Of a stretch of DNA of 64,000 nucleotides, positions 15,132 to 31,083 are shown piece by piece. A program made the translations under genes and the position numbers. Below the pieces are notes generated by a model. The model had not been told where the DNA came from. It saw nothing but the letters and a program-made list of their open reading frames with translations, and did no database searches. Position 1 is the first letter of the stretch. Each line of letters starts with the position of its first letter. The stretch spans positions 1,178,001 through 1,242,000 of the forward strand of contig NZ_AP012324.1 in the NCBI RefSeq assembly GCF_001025175.1, read 5' to 3'. This stretch comes from Bifidobacterium breve DSM 20213 = JCM 1192. Lineage in GTDB: Bacteria; Actinomycetota; Actinomycetes; Actinomycetales; Bifidobacteriaceae.

Positions 15132-15386
15132 AGTTTTGCGGGTTGTAGAGCTGCTTACAGGAAATTTGCGGTCGAACGGCAGCCCCAATCTTCCGTCACA
15201 GTGGCTTGACGAAATCTTCGCCATTGAAGTCGCCGGCGATGGTATCCGTGGATTATCCGCGCCTATCTGCTGAGCAAAACCGCGGCGCAGGGCGTGGAAC
15301 TGACGCCGTTCACGGCGCTACGCGGAAATCCGCACGATTATTGGTTCCTCGACGGCGACTTTATCGACCGAGGCGAAATCGATTAA
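15132..15386 (+). pseudogene. Frameshifted remnant, family not recognised
   Basis: Two adjoining frames read as one broken protein. The first reads LRVVELLTGNLRSNGS ... QWLDEIFAIEVAGDGIRG, up to about 15240. The second reads IIRAYLLSKTAAQGVELTPF ... DYWFLDGDFIDRGEID and ends at TAA 15384-15386. A single-base change near 15240 would join them. No start codon with a ribosome site is seen. I do not recognise the family. The rest of 15067-15426 holds only the hairpin at 15076. Confidence 0.5.
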
Positions 15387-15426
15387 AACCGATTGATAAT
15401 CGGCCATTTACACGCAAGAGGCGCCG

Positions 15427-15960
15427 TCAATCGCCTCGCGCATAGAGGCCATCGCTCTCCGTGCAGGTGGCGATGCGTGTGTAGTATTCCGTCTTGTCCT
15501 CATGGTCGATACGTGCGCCGCAATGCTGCTGCACCGCAAGACTTGCCGGATTGGTTTTGTGGACACTCAGGTAAGCCTCCTTGATGCCGAGCTCGCGGGC
15601 CTTGGCAAGCGTGAGCTTGAGCCCGGCGGTTGCGTAGCCGTGACCGCGGTATTCGCGGGCGACACCGTAGCCGATGTGGCCCGGACCGTTGCGCAGGAAG
15701 TCGGTGAGCCGGTGACGCAGGTTGAAGATGCCCACATAGTCGCCCTCATCGTTGACGAGAATGTATTTGGTGGCTGGCACCCAGCCGTCCGGCAAGCCGA
15801 CGCCAAGCGACTCATCACGCAACCCTCGCACATATGCGGCGAACCGTTCACGATTCATGCCGGCCGCTGGGTTCTCGAATCCCGTCTCCTCCGCCGGGAA
15901 TTTCGCGAACAAGTCAAACGCGCGTTCCTGGTCCGCCAGCCATGTCTCAATCAGCCGCAT
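15427..15960 (-). CDS. GNAT-family N-acetyltransferase
   Basis: 177 residues; ATG preceded by AGGAGGAG. The acetyl-CoA motif A is visible as GYGVAREYRGHGYATAGLKL (Q/R-x-x-G-x-G/A type), followed by KEAYLSVHKTNPASLAVQQH, the typical motif B with the asparagine of the RimJ/RimL-like and YxbO-like branches. The N-terminal part has a predicted substrate-binding segment (GFENPAAGMNRERFAAYV). Substrate unknown. It is an isolated gene on the minus strand. Confidence 0.88.
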   Translation of the reverse strand: MRLIETWLADQERAFDLFAKFPAEETGFENPAAGMNRERFAAYVRGLRDESLGVGLPDGWVPATKYILVNDEGDYVGIFNLRHRLTDFLRNGPGHIGYGVAREYRGHGYATAGLKLTLAKARELGIKEAYLSVHKTNPASLAVQQHCGARIDHEDKTEYYTRIATCTESDGLYARGD

Positions 15961-16095
15961 TGGTCACACTCCTCCTGTTGACACAGCAGACCACACTACT
16001 ACTGTGCTCGGCCAACGGCCGCAAGCCTTATCTAGGGTGTGTTTACAGATAGGCAGCAAGTGTCTGCCAATGCGTTTATCGCAGGATATACCAGG

Positions 16096-16425
16096 TTACT
16101 TTCCCCGATACACGGCAGCGACGCCGAAGACAAATTGTATGATGAACAATCCCAGCAGGAAGATCAGAGCTCCTGGCCGGTACATGCGGTAGAAGTCGAC
16201 CATATCCGGCTGCGCCAAAGGCGCTGCCATGATATACACCAGCGCAGCGAACACGGCGCCGAGCGCGGAAACAACCAAGAACGCGCCTACGGCAAAACGC
16301 AGCAGGCCACGATCCGAGGTCCTCCGGCGCAGGCCACGGCATCCCACGAAGACGAATACCGAGATCAGCAGGTAGAACAGCAGCCCGTACGTGGGCAGCA
16401 TGTCGATAATCAGCAGATCGTTCAT
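16096..16425 (-). CDS. Small polytopic membrane protein, unknown function
   Basis: 109 residues from ATG 16425 (MNDLLIIDMLPTYGLLFYLL), preceded by AAAGGA. Three hydrophobic segments are seen (about 8-27, 43-68 and 83-105), separated by a basic RGLRRRTSDRG loop. No family recognised. The dispersed palindrome at 16485-16506 lies 60 bp upstream in the same orientation as at the other minus-strand genes, so it may belong to that set. Confidence 0.65.
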   Translation of the reverse strand: MNDLLIIDMLPTYGLLFYLLISVFVFVGCRGLRRRTSDRGLLRFAVGAFLVVSALGAVFAALVYIMAAPLAQPDMVDFYRMYRPGALIFLLGLFIIQFVFGVAAVYRGK

Positions 16426-16469
16426 GGCATATCCTTTCGTGGCGCAATCCCATTCAACCTGCGCATGGC

Positions 16470-16755
16470 CGCAAGCGCAACATCGTGTCAAGTAATCGCA
16501 TGATAGCAGGTTTTGTCCGGCTGCGACCGTGGCCACGATGAGCGGCATGGGACATGATGACATGACCGGGGCTGCGGCGCGGTCGATCCGTATCGCCCGT
16601 ATTGGACAATGATCCGTTCGCCCTGGATGCGATGTGCGCGATGATCTCGGCCGTATCCAAGGACTTCCATGTCATGCGGGGGCACGGGTTCGCCCGCAGT
16701 GGCGATCGAGCACTGCCATAACCCGCATACCAGGCCGGACGTGCCGGTGTCGGAT
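16470..16755. repeat. 286-bp direct repeat, copy A, with response-regulator 5' remnant
   Basis: Nearly identical to 18667-18952 at a constant offset of 2197 bp, with differences only in the last ~50 bp. From about 16538 (+) it encodes the start of a response-regulator receiver domain, broken by two single-base insertions (in the run before the first Asp pair and at about 16677). Both insertions are shared with the other copy, so decay preceded duplication. After 16755 the similarity ends. The rest of 16756-16834 shows nothing recognisable. Confidence 0.85.
16485..16506 (-). promoter_or_regulatory. Dispersed palindrome, site 1
   Basis: Half-sites TGTCAAGTA and CGCATGATA separated by AT; degenerate compared with the best copy at 41011. 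It lies 60 bp upstream of the membrane-protein gene ending its start at 16425, within repeat copy A. Confidence 0.6.
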
Positions 16756-16834
16756 CCTAAGGAATCTGTTGGTGTCGCTGCAGCTCATTGCCATTCCCAC
16801 TGAAGAGATGATTGGCGAAAACGATACTCACTAC

Positions 16835-17641
16835 CTATTCATTAGGCTTCAGCTCGTGTTCGAGCACAAGTTTCATCTTGCTGTTATCCATCAACCATGC
16901 GTGTAGGTCTCGGTCCAGGATCATCGCCAGAGCGAAGCACGCCTGCGTCGCATTCTCCAATGCAATCCGTCGATTCTCACCCGGCAGAGGTATGCCGTTG
17001 ACAAGCGGCTCATGGTGAGCGACCCGATTACGCAGGGCATGCACTGTTTTTACGATATCCAGCGCGTACTTTCTCGTCCAGCGTTCTTCCACTGCACGGG
17101 CATACTGGCGCCCATTGGAGAATGTCTTATCGAGTCCTTTGCGCCATAAATCGTTCTCATAATCTGCACGGCGCTGGTCTGGCCACTTCGTGTGGATTGT
17201 TCCGCCGTCTTCCAAGAGATTGCGCCAAAATCCGAATGTCAATGACGCTATGAGATGGCCATGCGTATGATTTTTTCGCTGGTGCGGGGTGAGATGGTTC
17301 CACGCTTCACGAATCTGGTACTGGGTTCGGTCATCGAATTGTAGCCCTGCCATATACCAGTCTTCAGTGCCATTCTGCTCCAGAGCGAGGAGGGAGAGTT
17401 GCCGGTCCATGCGGTTGCGCAGAGCGACCTCGAGGATGGCGATGTCGCCCATACAGGCGCTGGCCATGTCGTGATCCCACAGGTACAGCTCTAGCGCTGG
17501 GCATGAACGTCTTTGAGCCTCATAATTGTAGGTGGCAAGCCGTTCATCGGTAATGCACGCGCGCAGCGCCTTCTCCCGCGGACTTCCTTTCCTTGGAGTC
17601 CGTGAGAGGAAATCAGTTGTTGAATTTGACTGTCGGCTCAT
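16835..17641 (-). CDS. Abi-family HEPN-type protein (abortive-infection-like)
   Basis: 268 residues, close to the usual length of Abi_2 (AbiD/AbiF-like) proteins. The central part contains ALELYLWDHDMASACMGDIA and LEVALRNRMD, then TFGFWRNLLE. Near the C-terminus the HEPN RNase motif appears as RNRVAHHEP (R-x4-H). AbiD/F-type proteins block phage growth in lactococci; HEPN proteins are often RNases kept inactive by a partner. No obvious antitoxin is adjacent; the gene upstream on the strand (17804-18292) is a broken membrane protein. Defence role is inference. Confidence 0.82.
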   Translation of the reverse strand: MSRQSNSTTDFLSRTPRKGSPREKALRACITDERLATYNYEAQRRSCPALELYLWDHDMASACMGDIAILEVALRNRMDRQLSLLALEQNGTEDWYMAGLQFDDRTQYQIREAWNHLTPHQRKNHTHGHLIASLTFGFWRNLLEDGGTIHTKWPDQRRADYENDLWRKGLDKTFSNGRQYARAVEERWTRKYALDIVKTVHALRNRVAHHEPLVNGIPLPGENRRIALENATQACFALAMILDRDLHAWLMDNSKMKLVLEHELKPNE

Positions 17642-17803
17642 GGCTCATTATGATATATCAAGAATTCCCCCAAAGGGCCTCTCCGGACGGTCTTCGACTC
17701 AGCCGTGATGCACTGGGGGTTTCTTTTTATCTGGATAATCGGGGCTTGGTTGGTCTGGGCTCTTCTTCAGGACAATCGCATATGTTTCGGGAGTGCTCAG
17801 CTT

Positions 17804-18292
17804 TCAGACGAGGCATTCGAAGAAATGCCATTCCGAGGAATCGGCATCATGGATGATGATCAGCGTGCCGCCCTCGTTGGTTATCTCCTTATGAGGCCGG
17901 TCGTAGAGCGCATCGAGCTGTGTTCCCAGGTTCAATCGCAGGGTCGCATCCGCTTCCTTGATTATGCGGATGTTCTCCTGGGGCAGTTGGCCACTGGAGT
18001 AATCCCTGCCGTCCAGAATGGTGCCGTCGACTTGTTCTGGGTCAGCGGCGACCTTCACGTACCGGTATCCGTCCCCATGAAAGCTTTCCTCGTCCTTGCT
18101 GACGATTGCCCGCGCATCCTCGGAAAATGAGATCGAGAACGTCTGCGACAGATTCGAAACCGGACTATAGCCCTAGTATCGAGTCCATCCGAACCATACT
18201 CCCGCCACTACCAACGCCGCGATGCCCAAAGCGATGATCGTTCCGGCCCGGCCACCGGCGGAAGATTCACCTTTCCATACGCGGTTTCCCAT
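17804..18292 (-). pseudogene. Single-pass membrane protein interrupted by an in-frame TAG
   Basis: ATG at 18292 with an excellent AGGAGG site starts MGNRVWKGESSAGGRAG, then one hydrophobic segment (TIIALGIAALVVAGVWFGW). Codon 40 is TAG (18175-18173). The same frame then continues without interruption for 122 residues (SPVSNLSQTFSISFSEDA ... IIIHDADSSEWHFFECLV) to a normal stop. The frame, ribosome site and extracytoplasmic-looking tail argue for a recently inactivated gene of 162 codons. Family not recognised. A sequencing error at one base would restore it. Confidence 0.7.
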
Positions 18293-18439
18293 CGTCGGCC
18301 TCCTAGCCTTAGCCGTAGGGTCTGCTAGATCAAAGTGTGTATTACTGATTAGCGTGAGGTCGCCGCCACTACGTGAGCGGTCGAAAACCTCATGCCACCC
18401 GGCAAATCCGAGAAGCGGTCGGAGAACTATTCGAAGCCG

Positions 18440-18568
18440 TCAGCTAATCCAGTGTTGAACGTACGCGACGACACCCAGAAACGCTCCTATACCCGCTCCG
18501 AGGAAGACGAATCCCCATCCCAACCAGTCAGCAAATCGATTGACCGGGGATTTCGCAAAGCCCTCCAT
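18440..18568 (-). CDS. Possible small single-pass membrane protein
   Basis: A 42-residue frame (MEGFAKSPVNRFADWLGWGF ... VVAYVQHWIS) with one hydrophobic segment. The frame is open upstream to about 18631 (CRDAEEDNHESGEGSTGTNS) but lacks an ATG or clear ribosome site there, so it may be the 3' end of a gene cut by the repeat at 18667. Dispersed palindrome site 2 lies 113 bp upstream. The sequence 18293-18439 between it and the membrane pseudogene shows nothing else. Confidence 0.35.
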   Translation of the reverse strand: MEGFAKSPVNRFADWLGWGFVFLGAGIGAFLGVVAYVQHWIS

Positions 18569-18666
18569 CACCGAATTCGTTCCAGTCGAGCCCTCCCCTG
18601 ATTCATGGTTGTCCTCCTCGGCATCCCTACATAAAACCCGTTAGTCCAATTCAATCCGTTCGCGCC

Positions 18667-18952
18667 CGCAAGCGCAACATCGTGTCAAGTAATCGCATGA
18701 TAGCAGGTTTTGTCCGGCTGCGACCGTGGCCACGATGAGCGGCATGGGACATGATGACATGACCGGGGCTGCGGCGCGGTCGATCCGTATCGCCCGTATT
18801 GGACAATGATCCGTTCGCCCTGGATGCGATGTGCGCGATGATCTCGGCCGTATCCAAGGACTTCCATGTCATGCGGGGGCACGGGTTCGCCCGCAGTGGC
18901 GATCGAGCATTGCCATAACCCGCATACCAGGCCGGATGCACTGGTGTTGGAT
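18667..18952. repeat. 286-bp direct repeat, copy B
   Basis: Partner of 16470-16755. It forms the 5' part of the longer response-regulator pseudogene below and carries the same two frame-breaking insertions. Confidence 0.85.
18682..18703 (-). promoter_or_regulatory. Dispersed palindrome, site 2
   Basis: Same sequence as site 1, carried within repeat copy B; upstream of the small open frame at 18440-18568 on the minus strand. Confidence 0.5.
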
Positions 18953-19173
18953 ATGGCGTTGTGGGGGGAAAAAAAAACACGGGCGCTGACGTGTGCCGGC
19001 GCATCCGTCGCAGGAGCGGCGGGACGGGCAGCGTGTTCACGTACGTGCACCGCGTGGCCGACAAGCTGGGAGTCGCCAGCCGCAAGGAGGTGCTGGACGC
19101 ATGCGCCAGATACGATCTGCTCTGCCCCGGCTTTCCGACCGGCTTGGCCTGCGGCATGCCGGGCATCCGGTGA
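18735..19173 (+). pseudogene. LuxR-type response regulator, decayed
   Basis: Receiver-domain pieces are readable in shifting frames: DNDPFALDAMCAMISAVSKD, GTGSPAVAIEHC, LVLDMAL (phosphoacceptor Asp) and GADVCRRIRRRSG. They then jump directly to the last part of the LuxR helix-turn-helix, GSVFTYVHRVADKLGVASRK ... ACARYDLL. About 100 residues between are deleted, and at least three frameshifts are seen, one in a G6A8 tract near 18965. Best match in the window is the intact regulator at 20713-21408. Confidence 0.85.
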
Positions 19174-19605
19174 TCGCGGCGTCCTGCGCCGTATTGTCCG
19201 TGGCGGTGCTCGCGGAGTACGTGTTCTCGATGGCGGCACGGGTCCCCGGCACCGCGACCGTGCGCGATATCATGTTGGCTCTGGCTGTGCTTGCCGGCCT
19301 GGTCGGCGGCATGTTCCGCCCGGACCGGTTCCTGTGGCCGGCGCTTGTCACGGGCGTAATCCTCATGCTGGATGTCCCGATGGTCACGCCGGGACCGACG
19401 GCATGCCCGCCGACGAACACGAATACCAGCAACAGCTCGACGAATTGCGCGACGCCGCCAGCCGGGCCATGGGCCACACGCACGAGGTCATCGACTCGCT
19501 CGAAGAACACACACCAGCGCAAGCCAGCCGGACACCGAACAAGCCCACTGGCAGCTGGAGGCCGTCATTCCCTTTACCGGCGTGTTACAGACAATGGAAT
19601 GGTGA
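19101..19605 (+). pseudogene. Histidine kinase, decayed, partner of the regulator remnant
   Basis: It starts MRQIRSALPRLSDRLG, overlapping the regulator end just as the intact pair does (MRPIRSALNR at 20737). A membrane region follows (VIAASCAVLSVAVLAEYVFS, DIMLALAVLAGLVGGMF), then in another frame DEHEYQQQLDELRDAASRAM and HTHEVIDSLEEH. It ends with the last strand of the ATPase domain (QAHWQLEAVIPFTG). The ATPase core and the phospho-His region are deleted. It ends tail-to-tail with the intact kinase, overlapping its stop. Confidence 0.8.
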
Positions 19606-20737
19606 TGTTCGCGTTCCAGTTGTCGGAATCATCGGTGATGTCGAACGTCCCGGACATGGATTCGATAACGGTTCGGTATCTCTTGAGGCCGCTGCCGAGT
19701 CCGAGCCGTACCGCTTCGTCCTTTAGTACGTCGCTTGCCGAAATGATGACGTGCCGCCGGTCGAAGGAGATCGTGACGGCGTACCATTCGTGCGGGGCGG
19801 CGTGCTTGGCGATGTTCGCGTACAGTTCGTTGAGCAGTCCTTCGAGAAGGTCGAGGATGTCGTCCGCCAGTGGATGGTCGAACGTCCCGAGGATGTCGTC
19901 ACCTTGGAATCCGAGGCCGCCAAGGCGACGTCGTTGCGATTGAATGATGCCGTCAAGCCGTTCACGCTGCTGTTCGATTTTCCTGTCGGTTTTGTCGTCG
20001 TTATTTGTTTTGACGATGCGGCTGCGATCGTCTGGTTTGTCGGTGCGTTCAAGTTGTCGTATCACCTGGTGGGTGTGGTCGAGCGCCATTTCGGCGATGG
20101 CGCGCAGATCGGTGAGTTGGCGCTGATATTGCTCCCGATCGGCGGGGCAATCACTGCGGCTTGCCTGGTCGATGCGCAGGATCATGTAGGCGAGGTCGTT
20201 GCTGATGGTGTCGTGCAGGTGACGCGCCGTGTGTTCGCGGTCGAGTCGTTGCCTGAGTGTCGCGGTCGCCTGCCGTTGGGCGAACAGCAGGTTGAGACTG
20301 AACCCCAGCGACAATGGGCATAGGCACATGATGATCATGCCTACGATGTTCGACGAGGTGAGGTTGTTCTGCATGTTGTTCGCGGCGAGGGCGGCGAGGG
20401 CCGCCAGTGCGGAAGCGGCTCCAAGGCGGGGTTTGACGAACGAGAGGACCGCTATGGAGGTCAGTGCGGCGATCATGATGGTCGTCAACGGCGAGAACAG
20501 CCACAGCAACGCGTATCCTGAGACCGCGAACAGCAGACAGGCGGCCCATACCGGTGCCGCTCCGAGCATGGCGCACAGGACGGCGACGAGCAGCGATATG
20601 CGTATGGTCGACCATGACAGCAGGTTCTGGGATGAGTACACGCCCATCTCTACGGGGATCGCCACTGCGAGGACCAGCCCCGCGGCCAGTATGGCTGGGT
20701 GGTGTATACGGTTCAGAGCAGATCGTATCGGGCGCAT
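19574..20737 (-). CDS. Sensor histidine kinase, HisKA_3 (NarL-type) class
   Basis: 387 residues. The start ATG 20737 overlaps the end of the regulator gene by 25 bp. Several membrane segments occupy residues 15-155; then the dimerisation box ARHLHDTISNDLAYM with phospho-acceptor H175, a long linker, and a short HATPase domain (ELYANIAKHA N-box, IISASD, LGLGSGLKRYRTVIESMSG G-box). There is no sizeable extracytoplasmic sensor domain, as in intramembrane-sensing kinases. It presumably phosphorylates the regulator at 20713-21408 and so controls the divergent exporter operon. Confidence 0.9.
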   Translation of the reverse strand: MRPIRSALNRIHHPAILAAGLVLAVAIPVEMGVYSSQNLLSWSTIRISLLVAVLCAMLGAAPVWAACLLFAVSGYALLWLFSPLTTIMIAALTSIAVLSFVKPRLGAASALAALAALAANNMQNNLTSSNIVGMIIMCLCPLSLGFSLNLLFAQRQATATLRQRLDREHTARHLHDTISNDLAYMILRIDQASRSDCPADREQYQRQLTDLRAIAEMALDHTHQVIRQLERTDKPDDRSRIVKTNNDDKTDRKIEQQRERLDGIIQSQRRRLGGLGFQGDDILGTFDHPLADDILDLLEGLLNELYANIAKHAAPHEWYAVTISFDRRHVIISASDVLKDEAVRLGLGSGLKRYRTVIESMSGTFDITDDSDNWNANITIPLSVTRR

Positions 20738-21408
20738 ATGGCGAGGGCCTCCTTGCGGTCGGCGGCATGGAGCTTGCGGCATGCCCTGTTGACGTAGGTG
20801 AAGACGCTGCCCTTGCTGACATTCAGGAGCGCGGCTATCTCGTCGGTGGATGATCCATGCGCGTAGAGGCGCAGTACGTCCCGTTCCCTGGAGGACAGCG
20901 ATGGCTTGTCGTTTTCCGGCAGCCGGCCCTCGGTCGCGTGTCCTTCGTTGAGTTTGCGATTGGCTTCCCGTGCGGTGGGGAATCCGGTGCCGGGGACGGG
21001 CTCGCCCTGTGCCGCGCATCGTATGGCCTGCGGGAGCTCTTTGACGATGTCATCTTTGGCTATCAGGCATTGTGCGCCCGCCTCGACCGCGTCTTGCCGA
21101 TATGGATCAAGGTCATAGGAGGTGACGCACACCAAGCCGATCGTCGGAGTGCGCCGACGGATTCTGGCGCATATGTCCGCGCCGGTGATGCCTCCCAAGG
21201 CCATGTCGACGACCAGCACGTCGGGTCGCGCGCCGTGGGTCATGCAGCGCTGCAATGCCATCGCCGGGGACGTGGTGCTCCAGATGATGTGGAACCGCGG
21301 GGAGAGACGGCTCGTCATCACGGCTATGGCGTTGAGGGCGAGCGAATCGTTGTCCAGCACCCCGATGGAGATGGTATGCGAGTCCGATAGGTCTGTCATG
21401 CCGCCCAT
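20713..21408 (-). CDS. LuxR/NarL-family response regulator
   Basis: 231 residues from the ATG at 21408; an ATG three codons later (21399) is an alternative. Receiver domain with acidic pair in IGVLDNDS (D19, D21), phospho-acceptor D68 in VLVVDMALGG, and conserved T/S and K (CVTSYD, CLIAKDD). The DNA-binding domain is LSSRERDVLRLYAHGSSTDE ... SKGSVFTYVNRACRKLHAAD. It is translationally coupled to its kinase. A perfect 18-bp palindrome at 21442-21459 lies between this gene and the divergent lipoprotein/exporter operon and is a candidate binding site. Confidence 0.92.
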   Translation of the reverse strand: MGGMTDLSDSHTISIGVLDNDSLALNAIAVMTSRLSPRFHIIWSTTSPAMALQRCMTHGARPDVLVVDMALGGITGADICARIRRRTPTIGLVCVTSYDLDPYRQDAVEAGAQCLIAKDDIVKELPQAIRCAAQGEPVPGTGFPTAREANRKLNEGHATEGRLPENDKPSLSSRERDVLRLYAHGSSTDEIAALLNVSKGSVFTYVNRACRKLHAADRKEALAICARYDLL

Positions 21409-21440
21409 CGTATGCGCATCCCATGCTCCTCGACGTATCG

Positions 21441-21460
21441 TTGTCATGCGCGCGCATGAC
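21441..21460. promoter_or_regulatory. Perfect palindrome in the divergent intergenic region
   Basis: TGTCATGCG directly abuts CGCATGACA (21442-21459). These half-sites match the dispersed palindrome except that the 2-bp spacer is absent. It is 34 bp upstream of the regulator start and about 77 bp upstream of the lipoprotein start, so it could serve both. Confidence 0.65.
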
Positions 21461-21536
21461 AGTCTTTTGCTCCCGGATCGCCGTCTGTGGGCTAATGGTT
21501 GGCGACAGTTGTGCAATCGTCCGAAGGAGCATGATG

Positions 21537-22049
21537 ATGAAATCGGGAACACGACGCAGGGCCGCCATTCTGACCGCAGTGATGCTGCTGTCCGGTTGCG
21601 GGACGACTCCGAACGGCGGCACCTCGGGAAGTGGCGGCATGCTGACCTGGCAGCAGGCGAACGAGGAATACAAGGCGACCGTCGAGGATTTCCCCTTTGA
21701 ACTGATGAACGGCGATGCGTTTCCAGCGAATATACCCAAGGCGCAGGCCGCGTCCTCGCTGTATGCCAAGGGAAGTGGGGAAGGACAGGCGTATGTCTAC
21801 TGGCAGTGCTCGGTGGAACGCGACATTCTCGACAACAGCCAGACCAACGCGGAAGCAGCCCGAGGCGCCCTCCAGCAGCTGCGCAAGCTGCTGGATACCG
21901 ACTGGTTCAAGAACTACTACGAGGACAAGGATGGCATATACGAGAACGATGTGATCGGCAAATCCGAACTCGGCGACTATTCGACCATGCGGGACTTCTA
22001 CACCACGGACTGCACATGGTACCGGCATGAGAACGGACTGACGAAATGA
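21537..22049 (+). CDS. Lipoprotein, unknown function (exporter operon)
   Basis: 170 residues. Three consecutive ATGs occur; the third (21537) gives a 7-base spacing from AAGGAG and is preferred. Signal peptide MKSGTRRRAAILTAVMLL with lipobox LSGC (C21), then a Gly/Ser-rich linker and a mature domain rich in aromatic and acidic residues (WQQANEEYKATVEDFPF, WFKNYYEDKDGIYEND). No family recognised. Its stop overlaps the start of the next gene (ATGA), so it is the first gene of the four-gene exporter operon. Confidence 0.8.
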   Translation: MKSGTRRRAAILTAVMLLSGCGTTPNGGTSGSGGMLTWQQANEEYKATVEDFPFELMNGDAFPANIPKAQAASSLYAKGSGEGQAYVYWQCSVERDILDNSQTNAEAARGALQQLRKLLDTDWFKNYYEDKDGIYENDVIGKSELGDYSTMRDFYTTDCTWYRHENGLTK

Positions 22050-22936
22050 ATGCGATCGCACCGTTCAAATGCCTGTTGGCGTGCGTGACGGCCACGACGA
22101 TGTGCGCGATGATGACGGCTTGCTCGCCGTCGCGGACGCCATCGTCCGACGCCTCCTCCACGGCGAAGCGGCCAGCATCCACGGTCGAGGTGCGTAGGGG
22201 CGGCATCACGCCGTTGCCCTCTTCCTCCACCGGCGTGCAGGTGGCTCCTGTGTTCTCGCTTACGACTCCGGCGAAAGGCTGGTTCCACTCCACGACTGAT
22301 CAAGGAGCATACGTGCATGCGGGCGACGTGTTGGGTACCGTCGGCGATCAGCAGGTCACGGCTCCGGTCGACGGCGTGATCGAAACGGTCGCGCAGGACA
22401 ACGACATGGCCGCGGACTATCCGCTGTTCTCGATACGGTATGGCGGCATGAGCGCCAGCGTGGACGCGACCGCGCTGCTGGCGACCATAGACCCGGACCA
22501 GCCGTTGACGGGCCGATTCCAGATCACCGACGCGCAGGGGCCCACGGACTGTGCCGCGGTAGTGAATGACGGCGTCGCCACTCCGCCCTCATCAGCGGAA
22601 GATACGGCCGGATCGGCGACGACTGCGCATGGGACGGAATCGACTCGCACACTGCAATGCCTGTTCCCAAAGGACGTGCAGGCGCGTCCCGGGCAGAACG
22701 CCACCGTGGTACTGACCGCGACGGCGGTCGAGGACGCCTTGATCCTGCCTGTCACCGCAGTCGCCGGCAGGCTCGCCTCCGGCCAGGTCAGCAGGCGTGA
22801 CGGAGATTCGTTCGCCACCGTGAACGTGAAGTTGGGGGCATCGGACGGCACGTCGATCATCATCCTCGACGGTCTCGAGGAAGGTGACATGGTGTCCGCG
22901 ACAGCTCCGAATCTCACACCGGGAGCGCAATCATGA
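22046..22936 (+). CDS. Membrane-fusion-like lipoprotein (MacA/HlyD type)
   Basis: 296 residues. Signal peptide with lipobox MTAC (C26). A biotinyl-lipoyl-like segment follows (GAYVHAGDVLGTVGDQQVTAPVDGVIETVAQ), then beta-rich adaptor sequence and a C-terminal ALILPVTAVAG / DGLEEGDMV region typical of efflux adaptors. There is no long alpha-hairpin, as in Gram-positive adaptors without an outer-membrane partner. Overlaps both neighbours by 4 bp; together with the ATPase and permease it forms a MacAB-like exporter. Confidence 0.82.
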   Translation: MNAIAPFKCLLACVTATTMCAMMTACSPSRTPSSDASSTAKRPASTVEVRRGGITPLPSSSTGVQVAPVFSLTTPAKGWFHSTTDQGAYVHAGDVLGTVGDQQVTAPVDGVIETVAQDNDMAADYPLFSIRYGGMSASVDATALLATIDPDQPLTGRFQITDAQGPTDCAAVVNDGVATPPSSAEDTAGSATTAHGTESTRTLQCLFPKDVQARPGQNATVVLTATAVEDALILPVTAVAGRLASGQVSRRDGDSFATVNVKLGASDGTSIIILDGLEEGDMVSATAPNLTPGAQS

Positions 22937-23613
22937 GCACACTCATCCGGTTGGAACATCTGAGCGCCGAAGTCCGGCTGCCCGACGGCGAACGCCTGAC
23001 GACGGTGGACGATGTCAGCGCATCGTTCGAGAGGGGAACGTCCACCGCCATCATCGGGAAATCAGGATCCGGCAAAACCAGTCTCGCCTCCATCGTCGGG
23101 CTGCTCAACAACGACTATGACGGGACGCTCTCCTATGACGGGCGGGACTGCGCCGCGTGGAACGACGCCGACCGGGCGCGCTTCCGCTGCCGGCATGTCG
23201 GCTTCGTGTTCCAGAACTACTCCCTCATACCGCATCTGAGCGCATGGGAGAACGTGGCACTCCCATTGCAATACCGGGGAGGCATCCCCCTGCGGGTCAT
23301 CAGAAGACGAGCCTCGCGCATGCTGCACACCGTCGGGCTCGGGAGCCGGACGGTGTGCAGCATGCCGTCGCGCCTGTCGGGAGGCGAACAGCAGCGCGTG
23401 GCCATCGCCCGAGCGCTGGTGGGCGATCCCGATCTGCTGATCTGCGACGAGCCAACCGGCGCGCTCGATACCGAAACCGGCGACATGGTCGCCGACATAC
23501 TGTTCCGACATGTTCGTGAACTCGGGGTCACACTCATCCTCGTCACGCACGACCCGCAGCTCGCCGCCCGATGCGAACGCCGACTGACGATCGACAGGGG
23601 GCGACTGTCGTGA
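22933..23613 (+). CDS. ABC transporter ATPase, MacB/LolD type
   Basis: 226 residues. Walker A GKSGSGKTS (42-50), Q-loop VFQNYSLIPHLS, signature LSGGEQQRVAIARAL, Walker B LLICDEPTGALD, and H-loop VTHDPQL. The sequence pattern (DEPTGALD, LIPHLSAWENVALPL) fits the LolD/MacB/FtsE-type exporters. Start ATG overlaps the adaptor stop (ATGA) and the stop overlaps the permease GTG. Confidence 0.93.
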   Translation: MSTLIRLEHLSAEVRLPDGERLTTVDDVSASFERGTSTAIIGKSGSGKTSLASIVGLLNNDYDGTLSYDGRDCAAWNDADRARFRCRHVGFVFQNYSLIPHLSAWENVALPLQYRGGIPLRVIRRRASRMLHTVGLGSRTVCSMPSRLSGGEQQRVAIARALVGDPDLLICDEPTGALDTETGDMVADILFRHVRELGVTLILVTHDPQLAARCERRLTIDRGRLS

Positions 23614-24779
23614 TCCGCATGATCGCCAAGGATCTGCGCATCAACCCGTTGCGTACCAGCCTCACCGCCCTGTCGATGTTCATCGGCATCATCGCCCTCA
23701 TCGCCGGCGTTCTCGTCGGCACGCTCGGACGCGACTATCTGGAAGCAGTCAACGCGCGACTGGGAGGCAAGTCACCCACCTATAGCGCCATCGTCGACGT
23801 GCCATCATCGGTGAACATACAAGTCGTCACGGCTTTGCAGGAACGCCTCGCGCATTTCCGTCCGGGAATCGCATCGGCGCAATATCACCTCAACGACCTC
23901 GCCATATGGGCGTCGTCCGGTGACGGCAACACGGAGATACGCCGCGTCACCATCATCATCATCGACGCCGAACGGACAAGAATCATGCCCGCCCCCATCA
24001 TCGAGGGTACATGGCTGACCGGAGCGGACGAACCCGCCACGCTGGAAACCGCAGTCAACGAAAGCGCCCGCCAATACGTGCATGATGGCACCGTGGCACT
24101 CGCCCGGACAGGAAATCCGCAACAGGTGCCGGCACGGGTGAACGGTGTCATCGCCGACGGGACGGACACACCCACCATCTACGTCAACGCGACCACACTG
24201 CAACGCTACTGGCCGCAAGCCTGGGAACCGGATGGGCTGACCATCCTCGTCCATCCCAATGAAGGCGTGGACGATCAACACGCCAAAACCGTGTTGGACG
24301 ATCTGTTGTTCGACGTCGGGACCGGCAGCATATCGTCATGGAACCGTTCCGACAACGCCGATGATTACGAGCAGGTCATCGGTTTTCTCCAACTCGGCGT
24401 CACCGTCACCGCGATATTACTGTTGTCGGTATCCGCCATCGGCATGATCAACATCGGATTGGCCGGCATCGAGCAACGCTCGCACGAGCTGCTCATCCGC
24501 CGCGCACTGGGCGCGACCAGAGTCAGCATAGCCATACAGGTCATCGGCTCGTCCGTGCTGCTCGGCCTCATCATCGCCTTCGCCGCGGTGCTCATCTCCG
24601 CGGTGCTGGTCTGGGCAATTCCGTGGATGATGCCCGCCGACTCGCCGCTGGAACCGCCCGCATACCCATATACGGCGGCGATGATTGCGGCCTGTGCGTC
24701 CATCGTCACCTCACTTGTCGGCTCTCTTGCCCCGGCCATCAAAGCCATACGGCTGCAACCCGCGCTGGCGTTGCGATGA
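23610..24779 (+). CDS. ABC transporter permease, MacB/FtsX type
   Basis: 389 residues from GTG 23610, which overlaps the ATPase stop by 4 bp; the ATG at 23619 is an alternative. One N-terminal membrane segment (LTALSMFIGIIALIAGVLVG), a large extracytoplasmic domain (about 45-260), then three C-terminal helices with the FtsX signature (GMINIGLAGIEQRSHELLIRR) and SIVTSLVGSLAPAIKAIRLQ. This topology is that of MacB-like mechanotransmission permeases. Last gene of the operon; likely exports or senses an amphipathic compound or peptide. Confidence 0.92.
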   Translation: MIRMIAKDLRINPLRTSLTALSMFIGIIALIAGVLVGTLGRDYLEAVNARLGGKSPTYSAIVDVPSSVNIQVVTALQERLAHFRPGIASAQYHLNDLAIWASSGDGNTEIRRVTIIIIDAERTRIMPAPIIEGTWLTGADEPATLETAVNESARQYVHDGTVALARTGNPQQVPARVNGVIADGTDTPTIYVNATTLQRYWPQAWEPDGLTILVHPNEGVDDQHAKTVLDDLLFDVGTGSISSWNRSDNADDYEQVIGFLQLGVTVTAILLLSVSAIGMINIGLAGIEQRSHELLIRRALGATRVSIAIQVIGSSVLLGLIIAFAAVLISAVLVWAIPWMMPADSPLEPPAYPYTAAMIAACASIVTSLVGSLAPAIKAIRLQPALALR

Positions 24780-24905
24780 ACCAGAAGCCATTCTGGACAA
24801 GCCCGCCGACAGCTGGATGGTCGGCATTCCGATCATCGATTGCATCCGGTAAACAATCCGCCTGCGGGATGTGTACCATGGTCGAGATGCCGCAACCGCA
24901 GAATG

Positions 24906-24934
24906 TTGACTATTAGCATACAAATACATACTAT
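24906..24934 (+). promoter_or_regulatory. Sigma-A-like promoter of the toxin-antitoxin pair
   Basis: TTGACT, 17-bp spacer, TACTAT, in an AT-rich stretch 30 bp before the relB start. The sequence 24780-24905 upstream shows no gene. Confidence 0.65.
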
Positions 24935-24963
24935 TGTCTTACGTAATGATGTTGGAGGTTAAT

Positions 24964-25233
24964 GTGAGCATGGCATCCGTCACAGTCCGCGTGGATGCGG
25001 ACACCAAGCAGAAAGCCGCAAACATAGCCGAGGATCTCGGTCTGGACTTGTCTTCGGTCACCCGCGCCTTCTACAAGCAGATTGTCCGGGAGAGGCGCAT
25101 TCCTCTAAACCTTTCCTATACGACCGTGCCGCCTGAAACCATGGAGGCCCTTGACGAGGCGAAAAACAGGCTCGCCGACGGCAAACCTCGTTTCAACAGT
25201 GCCGATGAGATGTTCGATTCGTTGGGAATCTGA
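24964..25233 (+). CDS. relB: RelB/DinJ-family antitoxin
   Basis: 89 residues from GTG 24964 (5 bp after GGAGG); an in-frame ATG at 24970 is possible. The N-terminal ribbon-helix-helix is visible: ASVTVRVDADTKQKAANIAE ... SSVTRAFYKQIVRERRIPL, where the short beta strand VTVRVD would contact operator DNA. The C-terminal tail (LDEAKNRLADGKPRFNSADE) should wrap the toxin. The stop is 3 bp before the toxin start. The symbol is given at family level only. Confidence 0.88.
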   Translation: MSMASVTVRVDADTKQKAANIAEDLGLDLSSVTRAFYKQIVRERRIPLNLSYTTVPPETMEALDEAKNRLADGKPRFNSADEMFDSLGI

Positions 25234-25236
25234 TCA

Positions 25237-25530
25237 ATGCTCAAACCGGATTACACAGCGGCATTCCAGCGAGATATCAAGAAACTCAAACGCAAGCACG
25301 CTGATTTACGCCCGCTGAAAGAAGTCATTCGTCTGGTGCTTGAGGACACGGCGGACTCCAAGGAAGCATTGAGGCGTAGGCATCGCGCCCACACACTTAC
25401 CGGTGATCTAAACGGCGTACTGGAATGCCACATCGGCAATGCCGGCGACTGGCTGCTTCTATGGATTCGCGATGATGGTACCGCCATGTTCATGCGAACC
25501 GGCAGCCATGACGAACTGTTGGGCAGATAG
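25237..25530 (+). CDS. yafQ: YafQ-family mRNA interferase toxin
   Basis: 97 residues; RelE/ParE-fold toxin of the YafQ branch. Features: basic N-terminus (AFQRDIKKLKRKHADLRPL), HTLTGDLNGVLECHI, DWLLLWIRDDG, and the C-terminal MRTGSHDELLGR, where the RTGSH histidine is the likely catalytic residue. Cleaves ribosome-bound mRNA in characterised relatives. Immediately after its stop, convergent on the minus strand, is a scrap of a response-regulator 3' end, matching the arrangement at 35905-35955. Confidence 0.88.
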   Translation: MLKPDYTAAFQRDIKKLKRKHADLRPLKEVIRLVLEDTADSKEALRRRHRAHTLTGDLNGVLECHIGNAGDWLLLWIRDDGTAMFMRTGSHDELLGR

Positions 25531-25535
25531 CGGGT

Positions 25536-25577
25536 TTACAGCCTGCTTTGAACCAGCCGATGGCGATTTGAGTGCGG
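25536..25577 (-). pseudogene. 3' scrap of a NarL-type response regulator
   Basis: On the minus strand it encodes RTQIAIGWFKAG, the last residues of the regulator at 35955-36623; about 35 nucleotides are identical. It is joined directly to the kinase fragment that follows. Confidence 0.8.
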
Positions 25578-26001
25578 CAGCCGGCCGTGCCCGCAGAAGT
25601 CGGCATCGCCGCGCAGCGTGCCGGTCTGCAATCGCTGATCGATGAGGAGGAGTCCAGACTCGAAGCCCCGGGATTCACCGGCGACAACCTGCTCGCCGAA
25701 CCACACCGGCCGCTCACGCCGGAGACCATGCGACTGCTGTCGGGCCTGCTGGCGGAACTGTACGCGAACATCGCCAAACACACAGATCCGGGCGAATTGG
25801 TGCGCCATCTGCGTCACCTTCGACACGGACGCCATTCATATCTCCGCCAGCGACACCACCACACCCGCCGACATGGGACTCGGCCTGGGCAGCGGCCTCG
25901 ACCGCTACCGGACCATCATCGAAACACGCGGCGGCACCTTCCAAACCCGCGCCGGACAAGCCCACTGGCAGCTGGATGTCAGCATTCCTGCCAAGAACTA
26001 G
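25572..26001 (+). pseudogene. Histidine-kinase C-terminal fragment, frameshifted
   Basis: Homologous to the ATPase part of the kinase at 19574-20737. LQSLIDEEESRLEAPGFTGD, LLSGLLAELYANIAKH (N-box), then after a frameshift near 25800 HISASDTTTPADMGLGLGSG, LDRYRTIIETRGGTF and the terminal QAHWQLDVSIPAKN. The membrane and phospho-acceptor parts are missing. The gap 26002-26197 that follows has no recognisable gene. Confidence 0.82.
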
Positions 26002-26197
26002 CCAGGCTTGGGACTCGGTAATGCACGCGCGCAACGATTTCTTCTGTGAGTTTCTGTTCTTCTACACAACTTAATCCGATATGCCTTCCGGGCGTGTCGT
26101 TGCTCGTGTCGTGAACCGTCGGTTTGTTTCTAGCTACATACATCAATGAACGTTTGTTTACGATGTGCCGTGGAAGGAGCCGCATACGCAGGATGAC

Positions 26198-26749
26198 ATG
26201 ACCTCGCCCGGTGGGGCGGCGATGTGCGACGAGGATCTGCTCGTGCGGGTCGCCTCCGGGGACGAACGCGCCTTCGAGACCCTGTATGGGCGTCACGCTG
26301 CGGCGGTGCGGGCGTTCGTGCGCGTGCGCGTGCCGGATGCCGGCACGGCCGAGGAGGTGTGCGCCGACGTGTGGCTGGGCTGCTGGCGGTCGGCGAGGGC
26401 GTTCCGTGGTGATGCGAAGGTGCTGTCCTGGCTGCTGGGCATCGCGAAACGGCAGATCTACATGCGCGTGCGGCGCGTACGCCCGAATGTGACCGCGTTG
26501 GACGATGCGCCCGAACCGCGTGACGATGGACCGAGTCCGGAGACGGCCGTGCTGTCCGAAGTGGGCGTGGATGATCTGATGGCGTTGTTGCGCCGGCTGC
26601 CCGTAGAACTGGTGGAGACGGCCACGTTGGCGTGGCTGCACGGCCTGTCGTACCGGCAGATCGCCGATTTGTCGGACGTGCCGGAAGGCACGGTCAAATC
26701 CCGTATCTCGCGTGCGCGCCGTCTGCTGCGCGCGCAACTCGACCGCTAA
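26198..26749 (+). CDS. ECF RNA polymerase sigma factor
   Basis: 183 residues from ATG 26198; a GTG at 26165 would add 11 residues. Region 2: FETLYGRHAAAVRAFVRVRV, EEVCADVWLGCWRSARAF and VLSWLLGIAKRQIYMRVRR. Region 4: LPVELVETATLAWLHGLSYR and PEGTVKSRISRARRLLRAQL. It heads a plus-strand cluster of a membrane protein (probable anti-sigma), two further membrane proteins, an ABC ATPase and a lipoprotein, so it probably controls them in response to an envelope signal. Confidence 0.92.
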   Translation: MTSPGGAAMCDEDLLVRVASGDERAFETLYGRHAAAVRAFVRVRVPDAGTAEEVCADVWLGCWRSARAFRGDAKVLSWLLGIAKRQIYMRVRRVRPNVTALDDAPEPRDDGPSPETAVLSEVGVDDLMALLRRLPVELVETATLAWLHGLSYRQIADLSDVPEGTVKSRISRARRLLRAQLDR

Positions 26750-26782
26750 AACGATGCGGATGGAAAGGAACGGTGAATCCTG

Positions 26783-27610
26783 ATGACCGATCATCTTGAC
26801 GAAACGATCGACCGTTTGACGGACGAGACGCCCGACGGGCATCTGCTTGCGGCATTGGACGCCGTGGAACGATCCCATTCGGGAGACGCGCCTCCCGCTG
26901 CGGCGGTGATGGCGCGCATCCGCGCGTCGCGGTCCCCGTTGGACGGACCGGCATGGTCGTGGGCGCGCAGTCTGCGGTTGTTCATGCTGCTGCTGGGCCG
27001 GCAGTCGCGGGTGGTGCCGTGGCGGGTGGTGCCGGCCACGCTGGCGTTGATGGCGTTCGCCGGATTGGGGGCGCGGTTCTTCGCGGTCGGCTGGGGTGCG
27101 ACGGTCGTGTCCCATGCGTTCTGCTCGATGGTGCTGGCCGGCGTGCTGCTGAGCGTGACGATGGCGCTCGGGGATTCCCGCGCGGACATGATCTCGTCGG
27201 CCACCCCATTGGGCACGGGGGCGGTCACGCTGGTCCGGCTGGTGTTCATACTCGCCTGCGACGTCATGTTCGGCCTGATGGTGACCACCGTGATGGGCGC
27301 GCAGGGGTATGGGACGTTCGGCGTACTGCTGGTCGGATGGCTGTCGCCCCTGCTGCTGGTCGCCGGCGTGGGCGCGATGCTCGCGATCCGTTTCTCCTCG
27401 GGCGTCGGTTTCGGCGTCGGCCTGCTGCTGGTCGCCGTGATCCGTACGGACCTGCTCGGGCTGACGGGCCTGCCGGCCGCGGGCTGGATCGATATGACCC
27501 GGCCATTCGGGCAGCCGCTGCTGGCCGTCACGGGTCTGATGGCGTGCGCGGCGGCGGTGGCGTTCTCCGGACGATTGTCCGAGGCGCGCATGGCGGCCGC
27601 GGCCGTCTGA
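26783..27610 (+). CDS. Membrane protein, putative anti-sigma factor
   Basis: 275 residues. A hydrophilic N-terminus of about 70 residues (LDETIDRLTDETPDGHLLAA) precedes six hydrophobic segments, rich in Gly/Val/Leu. It starts 33 bp after the sigma-factor gene, and position plus topology suggest an anti-sigma factor; no zinc-binding HxxxCxxC motif is visible, so the assignment rests on context. GC content is very high throughout this operon. Confidence 0.7.
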   Translation: MTDHLDETIDRLTDETPDGHLLAALDAVERSHSGDAPPAAAVMARIRASRSPLDGPAWSWARSLRLFMLLLGRQSRVVPWRVVPATLALMAFAGLGARFFAVGWGATVVSHAFCSMVLAGVLLSVTMALGDSRADMISSATPLGTGAVTLVRLVFILACDVMFGLMVTTVMGAQGYGTFGVLLVGWLSPLLLVAGVGAMLAIRFSSGVGFGVGLLLVAVIRTDLLGLTGLPAAGWIDMTRPFGQPLLAVTGLMACAAAVAFSGRLSEARMAAAAV

Positions 27611-27742
27611 CCGGATTGAAGCCGACGGGCCTCCGGCGGCCGTTCGGCGTGTCGCGTGAACCATGCGGCTGCCGTCCGCTACCTATCAGGTGACGGACGA
27701 TAAGGAACGGCCGTCGAGCTTCGCATTTCAAGGAGGGACGGC

Positions 27743-28369
27743 ATGGCGGGAATGATTCGCGCGCAGGCCAGACGCATCGGCATGGGATTGCTGACAATGC
27801 CCGTGGCCTGCGGGATCGCGGTGGCGGCCGCCGGCATCATGGTATCCGGCGTGTGGTCGCGCACGCAGACGCTGACGGTGGTGAACTGGCTCGCCCAGCT
27901 GATGGTGATCGGCGCGGGCGTGTGCGTGGCGGTCGCGTTGACCGGCGACCCGCTGGTCGAGGCGAGCGAGTCCACGCCCGTGGGTTGGAGGCGCGTGCAG
28001 GCCACGCGGTTCGCACTCGCGGCCGTGTCCGGTCTTGCCGGCGCCGTGCTCATGTTCGCGCCGTTGCACGTACTGGGCCTGTGGCCGCAGGACACGGGGT
28101 GGATAAGCCTGATCGCGCCGACCGGCGCGGTGCTGGTCGTGGGGGCGGCCGGGTTCGCGGCCGCCGCGTGGTCCGCGTCCACGCGGGCCACGGTCATGGC
28201 GGTGGTCGCGGTATGGATGTTCCTCGCCCTCCTGTGGGATCCGTACGTGCTCGACCCGGTCGCGCAACGCGGCATCCCGCTCACCGTCGCCGTGATCGCC
28301 GTCGGGATCGCGTGGCATCTGCTGGGCGACGAGGAACGCAACGTGACGCTTGCGAGGAGGAGCATATGA
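27743..28369 (+). CDS. Polytopic membrane protein of the ECF/ABC operon
   Basis: 208 residues; start after AAGGAGGGACGGC. About six hydrophobic segments (MGLLTMPVACGIAVAAAGIM, VNWLAQLMVIGAGVCVAVAL, LIAPTGAVLVVGAAGFAAAA and others) separated by short loops, one of which has STPVGWRRVQATRF. Its last codons overlap the next permease start (ATGA). It is likely one membrane subunit of the ABC-2-type transporter encoded downstream. Confidence 0.75.
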   Translation: MAGMIRAQARRIGMGLLTMPVACGIAVAAAGIMVSGVWSRTQTLTVVNWLAQLMVIGAGVCVAVALTGDPLVEASESTPVGWRRVQATRFALAAVSGLAGAVLMFAPLHVLGLWPQDTGWISLIAPTGAVLVVGAAGFAAAAWSASTRATVMAVVAVWMFLALLWDPYVLDPVAQRGIPLTVAVIAVGIAWHLLGDEERNVTLARRSI

Positions 28370-29148
28370 ACATGCACATCGGCTTCCCGCGATTGATCCG
28401 CGTCCACATGATCATCGTGTGGCGGCAACGCTCCCTATGGGCCGCGGCCGTCCCATTGGCCCTGTTCGCGCTTCTGCTGGGCGTGATCTCCCCTGCCGGC
28501 CCGCACGACCACGGCGCGGGCGATCTGGCGTTCATGGCAAAGACGATGGCCATGTTCATGCCGATCGCCTACATGGCCGCGTTCACCGACTTCCACACGC
28601 GGCACTCCCGACTTGGCATTGGTCAATTGGAGGATTCCACGCCCATCCCCGCGCCCATGCTGGCCGCGGCTCGCACGTTCGGCGCGTTCCTGATCCTCAT
28701 CGCCCCGTCGCTCCTGCTGCTGGAGTGCGCCGGCACCGTCCAGACCCTGCACGGCTCGTGGCGGGCCATACCACAGGCATTGGCCGCCGGACTCGCGATC
28801 ACCGGGCCGGCCGTGCTGACCGCGATGAGCCTGTCCTCGCTGCTCGGCGCGATCCTGCCCATGATCGTCGCGCGCATCACCGGCGTGCTCGCATGGTTCG
28901 CGCTCGTGTTCTCCTCGCCGATGCTGCCCGTGCCGACCGTCAACGGCACCATCCTCAACGTGATCGGCGACGCCGTCGGCGCCGGATGGTTCGGGCTCGG
29001 CCCCGTCTACCCGGCCACGGGAGGCATCCTCGCGGTCACCGGCACGCCCGCCAACGCGGCCATATCCCTGATCGCGCAGCTCGCCGTCGCCATGCTGCTC
29101 ATGGCGTTGGGTGGATGGTGCTCGGCACACCCGCGCACAACGCGCTGA
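28366..29148 (+). CDS. ABC-2-type transporter permease
   Basis: 260 residues from ATG 28366, overlapping the upstream stop; GAGGAGG precedes it. Six hydrophobic segments with an amphipathic N-terminus (FPRLIRVHMIIVWRQRSLWA) and a loop LGIGQLEDSTPIPAPMLAAA. The layout and the adjacent ATPase indicate an ABC-2-like exporter permease. Substrate unknown. Confidence 0.78.
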   Translation: MNMHIGFPRLIRVHMIIVWRQRSLWAAAVPLALFALLLGVISPAGPHDHGAGDLAFMAKTMAMFMPIAYMAAFTDFHTRHSRLGIGQLEDSTPIPAPMLAAARTFGAFLILIAPSLLLLECAGTVQTLHGSWRAIPQALAAGLAITGPAVLTAMSLSSLLGAILPMIVARITGVLAWFALVFSSPMLPVPTVNGTILNVIGDAVGAGWFGLGPVYPATGGILAVTGTPANAAISLIAQLAVAMLLMALGGWCSAHPRTTR

Positions 29149-29200
29149 ACGGCACCGGCGGAACCCCCACCGAAAAAACATCACACGGAAAGAAGACGTC

Positions 29201-30076
29201 ATGTTCATCTCCATCAACCACCTGACCAAGGACTTCCTGAGGAAGCCCCGCGCGCTGGACGACGTGACCTGCGACCTGCCGCACGGCATGGTCGGTCTGA
29301 TCGGGCCGAACGGCGCAGGCAAGACCACGCTCATGCGCATCCTCGCCGGCATCATCCGCCCCACATCGGGCCAGGTACTCATGGACGGCCACGATCTGAA
29401 GGACGAGAGGACCCGCCGTGCGCTCAAACGCACGCTCGGCTACCTGCCGCAGGACATCGAACCCTACCCGCAGCTCACCCCGCTCGAATTCCTCGACTAC
29501 GTGGGCGTCCTCAAAGGCATCGACGACACGCGAAAGCGCATGCGCCAGGCGCACGAGCTCATCGAACGGGTCGGGCTCACGGACGTGGCCGACCGGCGCA
29601 TCGGCGGCTTCTCCGGAGGCATGCGCCGCCGCGTCGGCATCGCCCAGGCCCTCATGGCGGATCCCCGGCTCATCATCGTGGACGAACCCACCGCCGGACT
29701 CGACCCCGAGGAACGCATGCGTTTCCGCACGCTGCTCGCCGGCCTCGGCGGCGACCGCACCGTGATCCTGTCCACCCACATCCTCGACGACATCGCCCAG
29801 ACCTGCCCATACGTGTTCGTCCTGCGCCAAGGCCGCATCCGCTACGACGGGCCGACCGAACACCTCACCGAACACGCCACGGGCCGTGTCTGGCTCACCC
29901 AGCCATCCAACACCCCGCCACCGGCCGGCATGATCGTCGCCAACGCCGTCACCACCGCACGCGGCGTACGCTACCGCGTCATCACCGACACCCCGCCCGC
30001 CGACGCGCATCCCATGGACCCCACATTGGAGGACGGCTACATGGTCCTCATCGAGGAACACCCCGACCAGCATTGA
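29201..30076 (+). CDS. ABC transporter ATPase (CcmA/DrrA-like)
   Basis: 291 residues from ATG 29201. Walker A GPNGAGKTT, Q-loop LGYLPQDIEPYPQLTPLEFL, signature FSGGMRRRVGIAQALM, Walker B LIIVDEPTAGLDPEER and H-loop STHILDDI. The C-terminal ~60 residues form the extra domain common in ABC-2 exporter ATPases. Works with the permeases at 27743 and 28366. It is separated by 52 bp from the lipoprotein gene downstream. Confidence 0.92.
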   Translation: MFISINHLTKDFLRKPRALDDVTCDLPHGMVGLIGPNGAGKTTLMRILAGIIRPTSGQVLMDGHDLKDERTRRALKRTLGYLPQDIEPYPQLTPLEFLDYVGVLKGIDDTRKRMRQAHELIERVGLTDVADRRIGGFSGGMRRRVGIAQALMADPRLIIVDEPTAGLDPEERMRFRTLLAGLGGDRTVILSTHILDDIAQTCPYVFVLRQGRIRYDGPTEHLTEHATGRVWLTQPSNTPPPAGMIVANAVTTARGVRYRVITDTPPADAHPMDPTLEDGYMVLIEEHPDQH

Positions 30077-30129
30077 CAGCAGACGAACAAGCACCCCGAC
30101 CACCACCGAACACGACAAAGGAAACCAGC

Positions 30130-30528: not shown

Positions 30529-30622
30529 TCATGCGCCCGCTGCCGGCGGCCGTGTCGATGTCGACCACCGTGCGCATACCGCGAGAATCCTGTGACGCTG
30601 ACGGTTCATCATCGTCTTGCAG

Positions 30623-30985: not shown

Positions 30986-31083
30986 GATTACCTCCTTATT
31001 GGGGGATCCGTCAACGCTAACGAATCATGCGAAAAACCATTATATTTGAATGGTATGAGCGGGGCTCAAGCATTCACAACATG

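Follow-up and report, generated by a model that had tools for sequence, protein, structure and literature searches.

The window, by which we mean the whole 64,000-nucleotide stretch analyzed here, carries an intact two-component system beside a divergent exporter operon. The response regulator, RR-A (20713-21408, minus strand), consists of a receiver and a GerE (LuxR/NarL-type) helix-turn-helix (HTH), both above the Pfam cut-off (Response_reg, 1.1e-12; GerE, 5.2e-13), and its neighbor HK-A (19574-20740, minus strand, start approximate) is an intact open reading frame for a HisKA_3 sensor kinase (PF07730, 9.3e-06, above cut-off) and, by adjacency, the candidate partner of RR-A. On the plus strand, the operon begins with a lipoprotein-like gene with no Pfam hit (21534-22049) and continues with an adaptor protein (22046-22936) that also has no Pfam hit and whose weak RND_mfp similarity falls below the family cut-off (41.3 bits to TIGR01730, cut-off 94.9), an ABC ATPase (22933-23613) and an FtsX/MacB_PCD permease (23610-24779). 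The ATPase and permease form a MacAB-type pair, scoring above the Pfam cut-offs and below the NCBIfam MacB equivalog cut-off. Structure models of the adaptor and the lipoprotein (mean pLDDT 42 and 45) were too poor for use. A toxin-antitoxin-like pair, recognized by reading, forms the right end of the RR-A island (24934-25530), and part of this DNA matches the genome G074 elsewhere.

In 10 aligned proteins of RR-A and its sister RR-B, residues D19, D21, D68, and K118 are invariant, which we take to be the acidic pair, the phospho-acceptor aspartate and the conserved lysine. Judged by sequence, RR-A has the features of a NarL/FixJ regulator, namely the receiver and GerE HTH, the conserved acidic, aspartate and lysine residues, and a putative operator that is an inverted repeat with a 2-bp spacer.

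The divergent region runs from 21408, where RR-A has its ATG on the minus strand, to the lipoprotein ATG at 21534. It holds a perfect palindrome, as the original prediction had placed there, although the operon start given at the time, 21537, is the second ATG. The palindrome (21442-21461, no strand assigned) reads TGTCATGCG-CG-CGCATGACA, 20 bp in a 9-2-9 arrangement with a CG center, and is annotated from its sequence and conservation as a putative operator of the RR-A type. It had been described as a spacer-less 18-bp variant of a dispersed motif; the half-sites are in fact separated by the same 2-bp spacer as in the dispersed sites, and the claimed 18-mer TGTCATGCGCGCATGACA has no match in the window, even with 3 mismatches. 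The 18-bp reading, with coordinates off by one, arose from one dropped CG. The spacer-less form is ruled out by the sequence at 21442-21461, and the spacing difference on which the earlier idea rested does not exist. The claim that the half-sites are those of the dispersed sites held, with six places in the window matching the 2-bp-spacer pattern at ≤3 mismatches, 21442 included, against 0.05 expected.

This is the sole perfect 9-2-9 palindrome within the window, where about 0.34 (simple expectation) to 0.43 (first-order Markov, 30 runs) would be expected, so that palindromy alone is modest evidence; the expectation in 128 bp is about 0.0006. Strong evidence for a putative operator comes from the matches to other sites, the promoter layout and the conservation. 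Taken by its sequence, the palindrome looks like a regulator-binding site of the ordinary operator type rather than a variant.

Conservation of the intergenic region, which had been named as a check, was found in all cases available. Orthologues of RR-A (82-85% identical) occur in Bifidobacterium simiiventris, B. olomucense, B. amazonense, and B. vansinderenii, and the CG-centered palindrome is kept in all five RR-A intergenic regions, including that of the window, with one base changed in two of them; TTTG and GTGGGCTAATGG are likewise kept in 5/5. In B. olomucense (G054; L061, 10640-10690) a 13-bp insertion past the palindrome brings in another half-site, TGCATGACA, the third, with TTG still at the 5-bp distance. 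The kinase-to-permease block (19593-24780) has 81-85% DNA identity in three of the four genomes with an orthologue, and the RR-A gene of B. vansinderenii may be interrupted, since its match has a weaker E-value than its identity suggests. These sequence comparisons, together with the promoter layout described below, give good support for assigning the 21442 site to the neighboring two-component system and exporter operon.

Seven sites with a common promoter layout

A scan of the 2,269,415-bp genome with the palindrome followed by 5 bp and TTG (≤3 mismatches) returned seven distinct sites, all of them inside the window, at 16486, 18683, 21442, 31085, 34312, 41012, and 42600; the reversed control pattern matched at 0 places in the same scan. 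The sites have in common the palindrome, 5 bp, TTGnnn (TTACGT at one site), 17-18 bp and a -10-like hexamer. At 21442 these would be a putative -35 TTGCTC (21467-21472, plus strand), 5 bp past the palindrome, and a putative -10 GCTAAT (21491-21496, plus strand) within the GTGGGCTAATGG stretch that is invariant in the five orthologous regions, and they face the exporter operon. Lying just upstream of this predicted promoter, the site is in the place of an activator.

The other six sites are AT-centered and point toward the minus strand, and all but one have a gene downstream. The site at 16486-16505 (2 mismatches; TTGCGC/TTGAAT) reads toward a gene for a small (109 aa) hydrophobic protein, probably a membrane protein (16096-16425, minus strand). 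Its duplicate at 18683-18702 has the same 2 mismatches and promoter hexamers, and no open reading frame of at least 50 aa was found behind it; the twin sites exist because the stretch 16448-16755 is repeated at 18645-18952 (95.5% identity). Farther along lie 31085-31104 (1 mismatch; TTGTGA/TACCAT, the weakest -10 among the window sites), before a small membrane gene (30623-30985); 34312-34331 (2 mismatches; TTACGT/TAAAAT), before an ABC operon (32188-34197); 41012-41031 (perfect; TTGTCT/CATAAT), before a membrane gene (40396-40929); and 42600-42619 (1 mismatch; TTGCCT/CATTAT), before a MerR-like gene (42051-42464). A further match at 39562, with 3 mismatches, lies within the open reading frame of an ATPase-like gene (by reading), has flanks without the layout and was dropped as chance.

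For the layout we compared the window sites with those in 20 stretches from 16 other genomes, collapsing duplicates between genomes (69 rows to 53 non-redundant sites). Two rows were left out before counting, namely the RR-A site of B. olomucense, because its 13-bp insertion misdirected the automatic orientation, and position 2402 of G074, which has 4 mismatches and was judged chance. In the remaining 51 sites, TTG stands exactly 5 bp past the palindrome in 48, compared with 2/51 on the opposite side. Site orientation was chosen by a script using the TTG score and agrees with the sequence asymmetry in asymmetric sites; among these alone (n = 47) the counts are 44 vs. 2. Hexamers resembling a -10 (≤2 mismatches to TATAAT) peak at offsets 28 (19 sites) and 29 (28 sites).

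A regulon of small membrane proteins and ABC transporters makes sense in that homologues of the 16425 gene lie behind sites in several RR-B loci of relatives. Those of the gene behind 41012 were matched in 16 other genomes and stand directly behind a site in nine of them (the G074 site among the nine is decayed), the rest having no site. Speaking against it, the ABC operon behind 34312 has a site at only one of seven orthologues (G015), and for the 31085 gene the genus offers just two relatives, both weak.

Regulators that accompany the sites

Across 112 genomes of the genus, one per species, RR-A or its sister RR-B (52-57% identical to RR-A) is present in 17. The palindrome (≤1 mismatch to TGTCANGCGNNCGCNTGACA) occurs in 16 of these 17 and in 5 of the 95 others (Fisher p = 3.5e-14, a guide only, since the genomes are related), and the reversed control pattern matched in 5/112 genomes. 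In the seventeenth regulator genome, G097, a looser pattern is matched at a site with one mismatch. Among the five exceptions, the sites of G003, G034, and G042 lie near a regulator of a third clade, RR-C (helix SSVKTYVMRA), which in these three genomes, as in G010 and G005, is no farther than about 1.5 kb from an AT-type site. AT sites are therefore not private to RR-B, since G003, G034, and G042 lack it. A similar AT-type site is carried by contig C23 of G054. In the fourth exception, G030 (L044), the palindrome takes the variant form TGTCACGCGCGCACGTGACA and immediately precedes a regulator with 44% identity, and it is possible that operator and regulator are drifting together there. The site of the fifth, G095, which has neither RR-A nor RR-B, does not fit the clade pattern.

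The site centers separate the two sisters. A CG center was found in three of the 51 sites, all of them RR-A promoters, and the other 48 have AT (42), TT (3) or GT (3); RR-B sits with AT-type sites. The recognition helices of RR-A and RR-B have GSVFTYV in common and differ at residue 207, N in RR-A and H in RR-B, a position that by eye aligns with what we take to be the base-contacting lysine of NarL. The helix alone does not predict a site, since G056 has a regulator with a very similar helix, NSVFTYVHRA, yet no site. The earlier suggestion that two related regulators might be involved was therefore right in substance, with CG centers at RR-A promoters vs. the other 48 of 51 and RR-B decayed here, although the spacing ground for it is absent.

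In the genome of the window itself, the protein closest to RR-A shares 40% identity with it, and an RR-C protein has its best match in RR-A, at 38%, so neither an intact RR-B nor RR-C was found there. RR-C was accordingly rejected as the reader of the AT-centered sites in this genome.

Remnants of a sister system in a mosaic region

Decayed paralogous regulators had been said to be present, and tblastn with the RR-B and HK-B proteins of relatives bears this out, finding in the window, beyond the intact RR-A and HK-A, only pieces, all on the plus strand. They comprise the N-terminal part of a first RR-B copy (16599-16755), a second copy (18796-19122) with an N-terminal piece (18796-19035) and an HTH piece (19000-19122), and HK-B residues 1-97 and 202-253 (19101-19540, in pieces 19101-19391 and 19385-19540) and 259-395 (25581-25989). 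More distant matches to the same queries lie at 35985-36635 and 38123-38401. In G074, only about 17 bp separate the DNA of the HK-B pieces 19385-19540 and 25581-25989 (90-92% identity), so about 6 kb, containing RR-A, HK-A, the exporter and the toxin-antitoxin-like pair, lies inside a dead kinase gene. Through a 65-bp repeat (25513-25576 and 35932-35996, 89% identical), the dead hkB piece has beside it what reads like a 3'-end fragment of the regulator gene at 35955.

G043, otherwise collinear, is 99.3% identical over 15242-18654 and then continues at 42871, the 24 kb from 18655 to 42870 being absent; given about 72-98% identity in other aligned stretches nearby, recent interspecies exchange of 15242-18654 is likely. 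No regulator close to RR-A or RR-B was found in G043 (best E 6e-14), which retains two candidates for decayed sites, both with two mismatches. One lies in homologous DNA and has the sequence of 16486, and the other is possibly chance, as the reversed control of the scan reached two matches in one genome. When six genomes were searched, 25581-42870 matched several in pieces, including a 4.4-kb match at 92% identity next to the B. olomucense RR-B cluster. By these comparisons, 18655-42870 is a mosaic region, acquired or lost, and probably mobile. Within it, runs of C/A and of G (34448-35900) flank a transposase-like gene pair that by eye is IS30-like (34517-35763).

Mismatches to TGTCATGCRNNYGCWTGACA are found in five of the six AT-centered sites of the window; in relatives the proportion is six of 40 after removal of redundant sites (Fisher p = 0.0018; 0.006 when the duplicate is entered only once). 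The p-values are approximate because related sequences and a mismatch cut-off are used. Left out of this test were the three CG-centered sites and also the two G074 sites that remained (3 and 1 mismatches), these because RR-B in G074 is without its normal N-terminus. RR-B also has an in-frame TAG in a locus common to three genomes (G023 C1, G005 C20, and G072 C24, the last being one of two copies in G072). Two of the three sites at this locus are perfect and one has three mismatches, so decay need not follow the loss of RR-B immediately. If the first two rows listed for this locus are omitted, the relatives stand at 5/38 (p = 0.0012). The six AT-centered window sites are probably orphaned RR-B operators.

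Predicted regulation of the exporter and the fate of the regulon

We consider it likely that phosphorylated RR-A activates the exporter operon from the 21442 site and that the other sites are the orphaned operators of RR-B. RR-A, encoded beside its kinase HK-A, would switch on the divergent operon through this operator, where a dimer of the presumably phosphorylated regulator would occupy the 9-2-9 inverted repeat and, bound 5 bp upstream of the weak -35 TTGCTC, would recruit RNA polymerase to the -10 GCTAAT. The six AT-centered sites, with the same layout, would be operators of RR-B, the former ruler of a local regulon; with RR-B and HK-B broken and the RR-A island inside the dead hkB, they would have been orphaned and left to drift. 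Binding, activation and phosphorylation, as well as drift reflecting the loss of RR-B, are inferred. The inducing signal is likely a membrane-active compound, as exporters of the MacB/FtsX type beside two-component systems would suggest. Several observations speak against this reading, namely the G056 helix without a site, the association of RR-C with AT sites, the poor -10 at 31085, the mostly site-less orthologues of the 34312 operon, and a palindrome centered near -51 (assumed start), 6 to 7 bp farther out than that of NarL at ogt (-44.5).

RR-A may possibly bind both kinds of site and have inherited the RR-B regulon, so that its exporter and the scattered genes for membrane proteins would be under one regulator, which was the main idea of the original prediction, here on corrected grounds. 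The half-site TGTCATGCG and the promoter layout are the same at CG and AT sites, the helix GSVFTYV is identical with a single adjacent difference (N207 vs. H), site 41012 is perfect, and RR-C and intact RR-B were not detected in the genome; the CG center of the RR-A promoters, however, has no counterpart at the other 48 sites of the 51 (AT, TT or GT), and the mismatches in five of the six AT window sites speak somewhat against inheritance. Since the two regulators would recognize one half-site, set equally far from the promoter, one may go further and propose that a mobile two-component/exporter island landed in the kinase gene of its resident sister, killed it and took over the regulon, a sequence of events that we regard as doubtful and that, if true, would be a natural one-step regulator replacement by insertion into the predecessor.

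Autorepression, in which the palindrome would be an rrA operator whose outer half-site supplies a -35-like TGTCA (with GATACG or GATACA as the -10) and RR-A binding would mainly limit its own synthesis, appears unlikely as the main role, although it is compatible with exporter activation. The GTATCGT adjoining the palindrome on the rrA side is invariant in 5/5 regions, which speaks for autorepression, but the -10 candidate is poor and the layout of the other sites falls on the exporter side at 21442. It is highly improbable that some unrelated regulator binds the sites, or that they represent a repeat element with no part in regulation: AT-type sites do share flanks beyond the palindrome (mostly NNAYGTTG), as a repeat would, yet the sites co-occur with the RR-A/RR-B regulator clade and keep a fixed distance to promoter elements before different genes.

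The predicted system resembles several known ones in part. Cell-envelope stress systems such as VraSR and LiaSR likewise pair a HisKA_3 kinase with a NarL-type regulator, and the best PDB sequence matches of RR-A are DevR, DesR, and VraR; HK-A, however, matches the LiaS model very weakly (17 bits, cut-off 450). Bce systems are defined by an OmpR-type regulator, and RR-A differs from the regulators of BceRS-BceAB modules in having a GerE HTH. For MacRS, a 2019 report by Liu et al. is said to name membrane protein genes in its title, and the motif is reportedly TGAGTACnnGTACTCA, unlike the sequence found here. According to a review, a MacRS consensus was identified in Streptomyces coelicolor for morphogenesis genes (PMC10345050). 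Two papers on Escherichia coli describe NarL at yeaR and ogt on 7-2-7 operators, in which inverted half-sites, 2 bp apart, directly precede the -35 (PMC7419079, PMC4549865). Both cases combine a GerE-type regulator with a 2-bp-spacer inverted repeat beside the -35, but the half-site here is another one, the center lies at about -51 (assumed start) vs. -44.5, and exporter and membrane genes take the place of nitrate genes. A further parallel to RR-A/HK-A, in that a two-component system lies beside its target operon, is the serpin system SerRK, presumably of the same species as the window. Serpin control in B. breve is described as exerted by a two-component system adjoining its own target operon (PMC8012564). 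Within the open-license literature searched, we found no description of the motif or of such a bifidobacterial regulon.

For one clade of two-component systems in bifidobacteria, the analysis predicts an operator, the layout of its promoters and a local regulon. The 21442 site leads to a well-defined local regulon and possibly to an instance in which a regulator has taken the place of its sister. Some genomes carry both regulators, some RR-B alone and some RR-A together with orphan sites; this natural series may serve to test how a regulon persists, disappears or is passed on when a paralogous regulator supplants the original one.
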